From: Nitrospirota bacterium | Lineage (GTDB): Bacteria; Nitrospirota; Thermodesulfovibrionia; Thermodesulfovibrionales; BMS3Bbin05 | Assembly: GCA_020351835.1 (NCBI GenBank) | Contig: CP070669.1 | Location: 1,937,388-1,974,093, forward strand | Length of the DNA stretch: 36,706 bases | Reading direction: 5' to 3' | Notes under the pieces: generated by a model | Seen by the model: only the letters and a program-made list of their open reading frames with translations | Told to the model about the DNA's origin: nothing | The model's database searches: none | Program-made: the position numbers and the translations under genes | Shown: piece after piece, positions 3,135-8,080 of the stretch | How the letters are laid out: each line of letters begins with the position of its first letter | How positions within the stretch are numbered: the stretch's first letter is position 1

Positions 3135-3839
3135 GTGAGTATAAGCAGGATCAACCATAAATTAATATTAATAGCCTTACTGCTCTCTTTTGCAGGATCT
3201 CCGGATATCGCGGCTCTTGAAGATAGTGTTTGCTATGGAACTCCCGGTAACGGACGAATAGAGAATAGTGTTAAGCTTCAGGATAAAGGAAACAATTTTA
3301 TATCGTATGGAACTGTTCCGGAGCTGCTGGGACGAACGTACGTTCATAACAAAGTGCGTGATGTAGTAGTAGATGCTTATAGAATTCTCGAGAAAGAACT
3401 GCCTGACAAGGTATATAAGTTCGCTGAGACAGGGAAGAAAAAGGGAGGGGAGTTTAAGCCTCACAAGACTCATCAGAATGGCCTTTCGGTGGACTTTATC
3501 GTACCCGTGATCGATAAGACGGGACGGTCCGTTCAGCTGCCGACAAATATTTTCAATAAGTACGGCTACTCTGTTGAGTTCGATGATAAAGGAGTTAAGG
3601 GTATCTATCGTATCGATTTTGAGGCGATGGGGGCCCACATAGTAGCACTTCATAAGGCAGCAAAGAATAGCGGTATAGGTATTCAGCGTGTTCTGTTCGA
3701 TCCGGCGCTTCAGAGGTATATATATGCTTCATCATATGGTGCGTATATAAGAAGGAACATTAAGATGCCCGAAAAGAGGTCATGGGTAAGGCATGATGAC
3801 CACTATCATGTTGATTTCATTGTTAAGTGCGAGCCATAG
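3135..3839 (+). CDS. Penicillin-insensitive murein endopeptidase-like (M74) protein
   Basis: 234 residues starting at GTG, with an N-terminal signal peptide (hydrophobic core about 9-20, then A-A-L-E-D), so probably periplasmic. Family M74/MepA enzymes are zinc peptidases that cut the D-Ala-meso-DAP crosslink of peptidoglycan. The two metal motifs are visible: H110-K-T-H113-Q-N-G-L-S-V-D120, and H220-D-D-H223-Y-H225-V-D near the C-terminus. H113, D120 and H225 would hold zinc and H223 would be catalytic, by analogy with E. coli MepA and the related LAS enzymes. The protein is somewhat shorter than E. coli MepA, mainly at the ends. No strong ribosome binding site precedes the GTG, so the start is uncertain, but the signal peptide supports it. 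Confidence 0.75.
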   Translation: MSISRINHKLILIALLLSFAGSPDIAALEDSVCYGTPGNGRIENSVKLQDKGNNFISYGTVPELLGRTYVHNKVRDVVVDAYRILEKELPDKVYKFAETGKKKGGEFKPHKTHQNGLSVDFIVPVIDKTGRSVQLPTNIFNKYGYSVEFDDKGVKGIYRIDFEAMGAHIVALHKAAKNSGIGIQRVLFDPALQRYIYASSYGAYIRRNIKMPEKRSWVRHDDHYHVDFIVKCEP

Positions 3840-3858
3840 ATGCCGTTACTGATGTTTT

Positions 3859-3886
3859 TTGATAAGATATAGACATTGTATAGATA
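3859..3886 (+). promoter_or_regulatory. Candidate promoter of the selenoprotein gene
   Basis: TTGATA (3859-3864), a 16-base spacer and TAGATA (3881-3886) lie just upstream of the ribosome binding site GGAGG at 3895-3899. Both boxes deviate from consensus. It is placed in the only gap between the endopeptidase gene and the small selenoprotein gene. Confidence 0.3.
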
Positions 3887-3903
3887 AAATAAGCGGAGGT
3901 GTA

Positions 3904-4116
3904 ATGTCTGACAGGATAGTGATCTACGGAAAGGCCGGATGACCCTATACTAATGATGCCAGGTCGGCATACAGTGATGCAGAATATTTCGACGTAAAGC
4001 ATGATAAGGCAAAGATGGCCGAGATGCTCGAACTTTCAGGCGGCGTGAGGGAAGTCCCGGTTATCGTAAAGGAAGGGAAGGTAACTATAGGGTACGGAGG
4101 TACCTGAGGGGTATAG
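3904..4116 (+). CDS. Uxx-star type glutaredoxin-like selenoprotein, two Sec codons
   Basis: Read with UGA as selenocysteine, this frame gives 70 residues from ATG 3904 to TAG 4114-4116. The start has GGAGG four bases upstream. The fold is thioredoxin/glutaredoxin-like: strand 'RIVIYGKAG', redox site U-P-Y-T with the first UGA (codon 13, 3940-3942) in place of the first Cys of glutaredoxin CPYC, helix, 'YFDVKHD', then 'VREVPVIV' with the cis-Pro typical of the fold, and 'GYGGT'. The second UGA (codon 68, 4105-4107) is followed by just two codons and TAG, giving U-G-V-stop. This matches the Uxx-star family of glutaredoxin-like (seleno)proteins known from Desulfobacterota and relatives (family name from memory). 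Each UGA has a hairpin downstream at the right distance. Translation without Sec would stop after 12 residues. Partner and substrate are unknown; a thiol/selenol redox role is likely. Confidence 0.85.
3956..3970 (+). promoter_or_regulatory. SECIS-like hairpin for first UGA
   Basis: ATGCC (3956-3960) pairs with GGCAT (3966-3970) around the loop AGGTC. The stem begins 13 bases after the UGA at 3940-3942. The loop sequence matches the AGGUC core of the E. coli fdhF SECIS loop that SelB recognises, and the spacing is within the bacterial range. It lies inside the coding sequence, as bacterial SECIS elements do. Confidence 0.75.
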
Positions 4117-4117
4117 C

Positions 4118-4139
4118 GACCGGCAGTTGCCGGAAAGTC
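4118..4139 (+). promoter_or_regulatory. SECIS-like hairpin for second UGA
   Basis: CCGGC (4120-4124) pairs with GCCGG (4129-4133) around the loop AGTT, which contains the G-U expected in a bacterial SECIS loop. An alternative longer stem uses GAC 4118-4120 with GTC 4137-4139. The stem starts 12 bases after the UGA at 4105-4107 but beyond the final TAG, so it is not itself translated. It fills most of the 25-base gap between this gene and the convergent purL, so it may also help terminate transcription from both sides. Confidence 0.5.
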
Positions 4140-4141
4140 AG

Positions 4142-7100
4142 TTACCCGTTCTTTTCACACCAGGTCCGTGCGTTCTGAAACATCCTGAGCCACGGCGACG
4201 CCTTTAGCTCTTTCTTCCATTCTTCGGGCATCCATCCCCACTGCCATTTAAGGAATGTCCTTTCGGGATGAGGCATAAGAGCGAGATGGCGGCCGTCAGG
4301 TGAGCAAAGAGCCGTTATCCCGTGTGGCGAGCCGTTTGGATTAAATGGATATATCTCAGTAGGGCCATTGTCCTCATCAACGAACCTGACCGGGGCAAGA
4401 TCCTTATCAAGCACCTCGTCAAAGATATCACTGTCGGGGAAGTATGACCGCCCCTCCCCGTGAGCTACCCATACTCCAAGGACAGACCCTTCCATTCCTT
4501 GCAGCATTATTGAAGGGCTCTCGAATATTCTTACTGTTGAAAAGCGGGACTCGAACCGGCCGGAACTGTTGTGTATGAACCTAGGCTGTACATTATCATC
4601 CAGCCCTCTCCATGGCACCCATCCTAGCAGTGCCATCAGCTGGCAGCCGTTGCATATTCCGAGACTGAATGTGTCCTTTCTTTTGTAGAACTTATCGAAT
4701 TCCTTAAATACCCTTTCGTTGAACTTAATGACCCCCGCCCATCCTTTGGCAGAATCAAGCACGTCGGCATAACTGAAGCCCCCAACGAATGCAACCCCTC
4801 TGAAACTGTCAAGCGTGATGCGGCCCTCTGCAATATCCGTCATTGCAACGTCCCATACATCAAAACCAGCTGCGTAAAAAGCTGACGTCATCTCGCGGTC
4901 GCTGTTGCTTCCTTCTTCACGCACTATAGCTATCTTTAGTTTGTTCTTTGCCTTAAGGATATTTGCAGGTGTAGGCTCAGGATCGAAAGAAAGATGATAT
5001 GAAGGGCCTCTCTGATTATATATGGCATCCCTTTCTTCATCAACACATTCGGGATTTGCCTGCAATCTGTCCAGCCTGTAACTGGTCTCTTCCCAGATAT
5101 ACTTAAGGTCCAGCATGCGGTTGCGTATCACATCATTACCATCGATCTGAACGCTTATAAGGCTCTCATCAATGGTCCTGCCGATTATCTCAAAAGGAAC
5201 CCCTGCATCAGAAAGCATTTCGGCGATCTTCTCTGTTTTATTGGTAAGATATTCGAATACCAGTCCCAGTTCTTCGGCAAACAGGATGCTCATAGGATCC
5301 TTTCCCTCAGCCCCGATATTAATTGAGATCCCGCAGTTGCCTCCGAACGCCATCTCAAGAAGAGTTGTGACCAGGCCACCGTCGCTGATATCGTGGCCCG
5401 AGAGAACAAGACCCTCATCCATAAGCGACTGGACCACATTGAACGCGTTCTTAAGAAGACCGTGGTCATCAAGGTCCGGCGATTCATCCCCTATCTGACC
5501 GTAAACCTGAGCGAGGGCCGAACCTCCTAGTCTGTATTTGCCCTTTCCAATGTCTATGTACATAAGGCTGCTCTCTCCCGGTCTCTTTATGTCAGGAGTG
5601 ATCACTTTGTTTATATCAGGACATGTTACATACCCGGACATAACAAGGGTTCCGGGAGACTTGACCACTTCAGAGTCATCGCCATCCTGAACGAGGGCGG
5701 CCATGGAAAGTGAATCCTTCCCGCCATCTATAGCGGTACCCAGATTTTTAAGGATATCTCAGAGTGCCACCGCAGCTTCATACAGCTTGGCCCCTTCCCC
5801 CGGAAGTTTTGCCGCCCACATCCAGTTTCCAGAGAACTTGATATCCTCAAGTGCTGTGACAGGCGCCCATACCATATTAGTTAAAGCCTCTCCAACGCAC
5901 ATTCGAGCCATGGCAGAAGTATCAATAAGACCCTTTATCGGCTGTTCACCTATCGATATGGCAGCACCGGTCTTACCATAGTGGCTCTGGGCTATGACCG
6001 CTACGTCGGATATCGTCAGCTGAAGAGGCCCGGCGCACTGCTGCCTTGCTATAAGGCCGGTAACGCTCCTGTCCACTTTACTCGTCAGAAATCTCTTCGA
6101 TCCGACCGATAGTAACCTGAGAACTCGCTCAAGTGCTTCACGGATATCCGTTCCCTCCGGAATCATCAGGGGCTTAAGAAGGGTCTTTGTCGTTTCAAAG
6201 GTAAAGGTCTTCTGAGGCATCTTGCCCAGAACCTTGGAAAGATCAAGATTCTCGGCGGTGTCTCCGCTTTCTGAATCATAAAGTACTATATACCCTTCAC
6301 CGGTTATCTCTCCTATGACCGAGTAAGGTGATTTTTCTCTTTTACAGATAGAGTCGAACGTATCCAGGTCATCTGCACCAATAAGAAGGCAGTCGTTCTC
6401 CTGGTATTCGGCGCCCCATATCTCAAGCACGGACAGGGTGTCATCTCCTAAGAGTATCTTCCTGATATCTATCTTAGCTCCTGCCGGATAAATGATCTCC
6501 TTAACGACGTTAGAATTTCCGCCGGCCCCCTGATCATGTATGCTGACGATAGGGTTGTCATCCCCGAGCTCAACGCATGCGCGTATGACCCGGTTGGTCT
6601 TCTGTTCCATCTCTGCATCGCCTCTCTGCACCGCGCTGAAGTCCAGCTCCTCAATGTTCTCGCCCTGGATCATGCTGGAAGCCGCACCTCCGCCTATTCC
6701 AATACGGTAGGCGGGCCCGCCGAGCTTGACCACCAGCATCCCCTTTTCGGGAGCATCTTTTTCAATATGTCTGTCATCTATTTGTCCGACCCCGCCGGTG
6801 AACATTATGGGTTTTATCCACTCCCGCCTTTCACCATCGGGAAGTCGCAGTCCAAATGAGCGGGTATAACCCTGTATCATCGGTTCGCCGAACTTATTAC
6901 CGTAATCAGACGCACCGTTACTGGCCTCTATCTCTATCTGAAGCGGGCTTGCAAGGTTGGACGGGTAAATGAACCCACTGTCTTCCCAGGGCAGTTCATA
7001 CCCGGGGATATTGAGATTGCCTACACAGTATGCCGCCGTACCAGCCACGATCAGACTGCCCTTACCGGTCGCATGTACGTCACGAAGACGTCCTCCGGTG

Positions 7101-8080
7101 CCGGTCTCAGCACCGGGGAACGGTGCAACACCTGTCGGGAAGTTATGGGTCTCAGCAGTGAATATTATATGGTACTTCGATAGCTCACGTCCGAAACCGG
7201 AAGGTTTACCCGGCAGATCCGGAACTATTGTCTCAATATCAAACCCACGAATAGCACTCGAATTGTCATTGAATGCGATTATGCTGTTACCGGTGTTCCT
7301 CCTCAGTGGACGACCAAGGACCTCCATGAGATTTCTCTTCATATCCCTTCCGTCTATGATGATCTTTCCCTTAAAGAACCAGTGTCGTGAGTGCTCGCTG
7401 TTCGACTGGCCTAGATCAAAGCATTCAACATTGGTTGGATCCCTGCCGATATCATTAACGAAAAGGTCGTAATAGTAATCTATATCCCAGTCGTCAAGAC
7501 CGAGGCCCATCTCCCTGTTCATTTTGACCAGTGCATCCCTTCCTTCATTGATCAGAGGTACGTTGAAGACATGGTCAGGTGCGATCCCTGTCTCAAAGGT
7601 ACTTAGACGATCTGCGTATTCGCATTCGGTCATCCTGTCATGCACAAGAGGAAGAAAAGTTTCCTTTATCTTTGCGGTCGCCTCTGCCGCCAAGGAGTTA
7701 TCAAGTATTAGCTGATATCTTCTTGAGCGTTCGATACGTTTTATGCCTTTAATTCCACAAGCGTGACATATCGAAACGGCGTTAGTAGACCACGATGTAG
7801 AGAAGTTCATCCTGGGACCTACCTCTATCAATACAGAGTCGGGTCGGGTCTTAAGGAACGGGGCCTCGGCAAGATCATCGGGTTCGAATGTCTCTCGAAG
7901 TAGCCAGGCAAGCACTTTGTTCTCGCCCTTGCCAATGATGTCAGTTGACTCGATATAAAAACAGTTCTCGGATTCTATGTCTATAATATCTGAGGAAACT
8001 GACAGGCGTGCTCTTGCGAGCAACTCCCTCTTATGCGGGCCTGTCAGGCCCGGCCTTCTGTATCTGTAGATAAGAGGCAA
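4142..8080 (-). CDS. purL: FGAM synthase PurL, single chain, with in-frame UGA
   Basis: Phosphoribosylformylglycinamidine synthase converts FGAR, ATP and glutamine to FGAM in step four of purine synthesis. The frame from ATG 8080 to TAA 4142 gives 1312 residues, the size of the large PFAS/Ade6-type enzyme. In order: N-terminal PurS-like domain, linker with 'NSEHSRHW' and a first AIRS/PurM-like half ('ETHNFPTG', 'GAGTGGR'-like loop), second AIRS-like half ('DGGKDSLSM', 'SGHDISDGGL'), and a class I glutaminase domain ('GICNGCQ' nucleophile Cys, 'MPHPER' catalytic His). The frame is broken once by UGA at 5761-5759 (codon 774), inside the well-kept stretch between 'GEGAKLYEAAVAL' and 'DGGKDSL', with no frame shift. 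An ATG at 5704 would restart inside that motif and is unlikely to give a useful protein. Either UGA is read through, possibly as selenocysteine, or this is a nonsense mutation or sequencing error. It is the last gene of the long minus-strand string, 49 bases after purB. Confidence 0.9.
5759..5761 (-). other. purL: In-frame UGA codon 774 of purL
   Basis: The plus strand reads TCA here, giving UGA in the purL message between Leu (CTC) and Asp (GAT). Both flanks are in the same frame and align without a gap to single-chain PurL proteins as I remember them. In that recalled alignment the position is Gly in E. coli and Val in human, so it is not a known catalytic Cys. A hairpin further along the message is weak: CCGC and GCGG pair 22 bases after the UGA, but the loop lacks a clear GU. 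Confidence 0.85.

Follow-up and report, generated by a model that had tools for sequence, protein, structure and literature searches.

The window analysed here, a stretch of 36,706 nucleotides, carries a small gene that is best explained as a UXX-star family 1 selenoprotein, a UxxT redoxin with two selenocysteines (Sec) that have a SECIS hairpin each and together probably form a Sec13–Sec68 pair, and taken as a whole we consider this explanation very likely. Family identity and the decoding of both UGA codons as Sec, judged jointly from sequence comparison, appear nearly certain. The gene itself is no discovery, as the family and its two Sec have already been catalogued. What the analysis adds are the two separate SECIS elements, each individually supported, natural variants that have lost one Sec together with its hairpin while the other Sec is kept, and relatives in which two UGAs only 9 nt apart stand for Sec and for stop. 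A protein of 70 residues thereby offers a direct test of what the C-terminal Sec does and of how spacing governs UGA recoding.

Table 1: Features of the selenoprotein gene in the window.
Feature	Position	Strand	Details	Evidence
UXX-star family 1 selenoprotein gene	3904–4116	+	70 aa with two Sec codons, ending in TAG	Translation, family match, relatives
Shine-Dalgarno core	3895–3900	+	GGAGGT, 3 nt before ATG 3904	Read directly from sequence
UGA codon 13	3940–3942	+	Sec in glutaredoxin active-site motif UPYT	UGA in 67/69 distinct relatives, Cys in 2
UGA codon 68	4105–4107	+	C-terminal Sec (GGTUGV, then stop)	UGA in 69/69 distinct relatives
TAG stop codon	4114–4116	+		Read from sequence and translation
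SECIS 1	3956–3970	+	Stem AUGCC/GGCAU, loop AGGUC (3961–3965)	Covariation, conserved position and loop, centroid fold
SECIS 2	4109–4147	+		Fold z, hairpin in all 69 relatives, pair changes

Gene, family and selenocysteine machinery

The first-pass annotation had described a single frame with two internal UGA codons and a good ribosome binding site, and translation places the start, both UGAs and the stop exactly where it had put them; the Shine-Dalgarno core is indeed a good one, though its spacing is short (Table 1). With UGA read as U the protein is MSDRIVIYGKAGUPYTNDARSAYSDAEYFDVKHDKAKMAEMLELSGGVREVPVIVKEGKVTIGYGGTUGV, in which there is not a single Cys and which ends with U68-G-V-TAG, a C-terminal U-x-x-stop. 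Searched against the UXX-star family models with Cys in place of both Sec, it matched NF041114 (UXX-star selenoprotein family 1) with 112.3 bits against a cut-off of 72 and over model positions 1–70 of 70, so that the first-pass annotation had named the family correctly. This full-model score and the retention of both UGAs across many genomes show that the frame is not a product of chance. The parent subfamily NF041212 (Uxx_star) was matched at 80.3 bits (cut-off 66) and the Pfam glutaredoxin model PF00462 above its cut-off, whereas the scores for NF041211 and NF047338 (UXX-star families 2 and 3) and for NF045501 (HUGP/GUXX-star fusion) stayed below theirs.

In a 2026 review NF041114 appears under the name 'Distant Grx-like protein 1 (UXX-star selenoprotein family 1)' with a UxxT motif and two Sec, whereas family 2 is given one Sec (PMC13188914); the gene is therefore a further member of a known family. 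We found no substantial difference from NF041114, with which it shares the full-length match, the UxxT motif, the two Sec and the U-x-x-stop tail. The models NF041212, NF041211, NF047338 and NF045501 stand for related glutaredoxin-like sequences, whose names imply a C-terminal U-x-x-stop, and a 2008 marine survey, in its relevant passages, names Grx-like selenoproteins only in general terms. The family is thus already known, and the biochemical role assigned to it is a predicted one.

The source genome, a single contig of 2,294,726 bases, contains the complete set of Sec genes on which the earlier reading depended: SelA (612.6 bits), SelB (374.9 bits) and SelD (369.1 bits) all score above their curated cut-offs, and tRNA-Sec (selC), with 71.8 bits, exceeds its gathering score of 47. 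The selD gene (G000:C1:269046-269969, locus L023) has one in-frame UGA of its own, and the selenophosphate synthetase of this genome is therefore probably a selenoprotein as well.

Relatives of the gene

Family matches over the cut-off were obtained in 42 of the 177 genomes of the same order, and in the phylum, sampled with 396 genomes, there were 61. Public genomes, scanned separately, gave 11 loci, the bins being labelled Deltaproteobacteria/Desulfobacterales/Syntrophobacterales, NC10, Magnetominusculus and Planctomycetota. The viral contigs and plasmids searched contained no family member, the single plasmid match being an ordinary grxC. The counts out of 69 given below rest on distinct genes that were read out in full, and as the reading pattern required a U-x-x-stop tail, the finding that the tail is U-x-x-stop or one codon longer in all 69 has to be seen in this light; 8 further double-UGA genes, which the pattern had not caught, were read manually.

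UGA is found at both places in 67 of the 69, and the other two (L075/L103 and L094) have a Cys codon (TGT, TGC) at the first place and UGA at the second. Homologues had been expected to carry Cys or Sec at one at least of the two positions, and this is borne out: position 13 has its two Cys variants, and at position 68 all family-1 relatives examined have UGA and none has Cys. Behind UGA 68 follows a conserved x-V-stop, the stop codon being UGA in 29, UAA in 23 and UAG in 16 relatives and one gene being extended by a codon.

One genome (G175) has two copies of the gene, of which one (L028) has codon 13 changed to UAA and the other (L069) is divergent with both UGAs. Two observations weigh against the explanation preferred here. 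Another genome, 99% complete, encodes a double-UGA gene (G101:C7:40994-41185, locus L063) but gave no match for selA or selB, which could mean either a missing contig or a relic. In a genome of the same genus as the source (G001) the family gene is absent and selA is present. Within the order, selA occurs in 38 of the 42 genomes with the gene and in 115 of the 135 without it, and since selA is nearly universal there, this co-occurrence is uninformative.

Structure and proposed mechanism

An AlphaFold2 model built from 9 sequences (pLDDT 82.3, pTM 0.65) shows a beta-alpha-beta-alpha-beta-beta arrangement that ends where ordinary glutaredoxins begin their last helix. The solved structures nearest to it are glutaredoxins including cGrx2, with a best E-value of only 1.3e-3, and a sequence search of the PDB with the protein returned spurious repeat-protein matches only. 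Of the complete glutaredoxin-like fold proposed in the first-pass annotation, the glutaredoxin-like part is borne out by prediction, but 'complete' was slightly generous as the model lacks the last helix. With glutaredoxin 3 and other glutaredoxins (PF00462, TIGR02181) and with cGrx2 (PDB 4tr0/4tr1) the protein has the fold, the (C/U)PY(C/T) motif, the VP loop and the GG loop in common. In contrast to the glutaredoxins and to cGrx2, a Sec-Grx from Clostridium, it has Thr for the second Cys, no last helix and a second Sec at the C-terminus. We infer a stand-alone thiol/selenol redoxin of the monothiol type (UxxT) with a glutaredoxin fold shortened before the last helix.

A dithiol glutaredoxin (CxxC) was rejected as an assignment, the second active-site Cys being replaced by Thr in the window protein. 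The same Thr occupies the usual place of the resolving Cys in all 69 relatives, never Cys, and in 60 of them no other Cys follows from residue 13 on, which leaves the C-terminal Sec as the only general resolving candidate. The GG loop of glutaredoxins adjoins the glutathione site, and Sec68 is located just after this loop. For these reasons a Sec13–Sec68 diselenide is the mechanism we prefer, with about an even chance of being correct. Sec13 would attack the substrate, be it a disulfide, a glutathionylated thiol or a selenenyl bond, and Sec68, sitting on a flexible tail beside the GG loop, would resolve the product via the diselenide and so stand in for the second Cys of the CxxC motif. A resolving selenol at the C-terminus had been proposed in the first-pass annotation, a hypothesis that fits the sequence. 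If Sec68 has this role, mammalian thioredoxin reductase is comparable in that the Sec of its flexible Gly-Cys-Sec-Gly tail is likewise C-terminal and redox-active, but it is an unrelated large flavoenzyme and its Sec pairs with the adjacent Cys.

The main rival to the diselenide is a small chaperone for metals or metalloids, in which both Sec bind a soft metal (e.g., Hg, Cu, As or another thiophilic species) and form no redox pair. The 2026 review suggests a possible role as metal ligands for the Sec of UXX-star families (PMC13188914), and two-coordinate binding would also suit a UxxT centre that is joined by a second, invariant selenol but by no other Cys. We nevertheless consider this function rather unlikely, as the protein is closely akin to the glutaredoxins with their UPYT motif and VP loop, and as neither a conserved neighbour nor a recurrent metal-resistance gene was found around the 68 loci whose surroundings were compared (see below).

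Two SECIS elements

In the published model of bacterial SECIS elements the loop has a G among its first two positions and the spacing is 16–37 nt (PMC13188914), and both hairpins of the gene conform to it. The comparative evidence shows both UGAs as Sec codons, each with a SECIS hairpin whose apical loop lies 17–18 nt downstream.

The stem of SECIS 1 comprises 5 bp and its loop lies 18 nt from the first UGA. Among 61 distinct sequences, 93% of the pair cells are standard pairs and both sides are changed in 27 cells, compared to a mean of 7.5 in shuffles. The covariation score is 0.373 versus 0.214 for shuffled data, a value that no shuffle out of 500 reached, and the signal is destroyed when the pairing partners are slid by 1–3 columns. 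At the loop-adjoining pair 21–27 we counted CG 45 times, UA 12 times and AU three times, and because this pair joins third codon positions many of its changes are synonymous. For example, Ala GCC paired with Ser TCG is replaced by Ala GCT paired with Ser TCA, leaving the amino acids unchanged. Such synonymous paired changes are the hallmark of a constraint that acts on the RNA within coding sequence. On the other side, the stability of SECIS 1 in the window sequence is no better than that of shuffles (z +0.2), and it is poorly paired in some relatives. Both relatives with Cys13 have no hairpin at the place of SECIS 1 and have kept SECIS 2.

SECIS 2 has an apical stem CCGGC/GCCGG (4120–4124 with 4129–4133) closed by the loop AGUU (4125–4128), which lies 17 nt after the second UGA, and an outer stem (4109–4113 with 4143–4147) that straddles the stop and extends as far as the end of purL, the convergent gene. 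Its fold z is about −2.6 to −3.0 in the window. A hairpin follows UGA 68 in all 69 relatives, its loop most often 16–18 nt from the UGA, and 67 of the 69 have a G within the first two loop positions. The stem pairs change in step (CG/UA/AU/GC) with a pair score of 15.2 against a shuffled mean of 4.5, a comparison that is descriptive only, as the pairs were chosen by best hairpin.

A hairpin at the 3' end of a gene and between convergent genes could also be a transcription terminator instead of a SECIS. This is very improbable, as there is no terminator-like site within 3700–4300, just 7 of 66 distinct hairpins are followed by a T-rich tail, and both the clustering of the spacing to UGA 68 and the conserved loop G are those of a SECIS.

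Still less credible is an ordinary stop at UGA 68, with only the first UGA read as Sec, although the resulting protein of 67 aa, ending at GGT, would have an unchanged fold. Neither the invariant UGA with a conserved x-V-stop behind it nor a second SECIS-type hairpin in all relatives, mostly at the right distance, agrees with such a stop, and the UAA or UAG that follows two codons on in 39 of the 69 would be needless after a true one. Both Cys13 relatives, moreover, still keep UGA 68. That both UGAs are sequencing errors or signs of a decayed gene, as might be thought because a lone UGA in the neighbouring purL is very probably an error or lesion, has a negligible probability and is already refuted by conservation: independent genomes throughout the phylum, and others outside it, have both UGAs at these places, with covarying hairpins.

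In those relatives that end with UGA (29 of 69; L009–L013, L017, L035 and others) the stop lies 9 nt after the Sec-UGA. In the usual arrangement it is about 8 nt from the SECIS loop and thus outside the range of 16–37 nt, a spacing that would account for its being read as stop and not as Sec. If this is true, the mRNA of these relatives carries two UGAs 9 nt apart, one for Sec and one for stop, separated solely by their distance from the hairpin. The combined picture of a Cys-free minimal redoxin with an encoded intramolecular diselenide, linking the active-site Sec to one located three codons before the stop, and of UGAs in its relatives that are told apart only by this distance (17 versus 8 nt), is put forward tentatively, as we would rate it slightly below an even chance.

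Genomic neighbourhood and other in-frame UGA codons

The upstream neighbour of the gene is a weak relative of M74 peptidases, and downstream follows the convergent purL. When ORFs up to 5 kb on either side of 68 loci were clustered, no recurrent partner emerged, the largest cluster being an antisense artefact and the next ones reaching 9 loci. The gene therefore appears to act alone, and its surroundings give no clue to a pathway. An Rfam search of the window returned a single match, to a tRNA.

The purL gene (TIGR01735 type) on the minus strand, from about 8080 to 4142, is split by a single in-frame UGA at 5759–5761 into ORFs at 8080–5759 and 5704–4142. We also considered this UGA as a Sec codon and rejected it, as 29 aligned relatives have Arg (27) or Lys (2) in its place; it is most likely a lesion or a sequence error.

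Five other loci of the phylum (L115, L116, L117, L119 and L120) encode glutaredoxin-like proteins with an active-site UGA and a Cys three residues on, their motifs being UIFC, USDC, UADC, UMFC and UHDC, respectively. These are apparently single-Sec glutaredoxins with a normal C-terminus.
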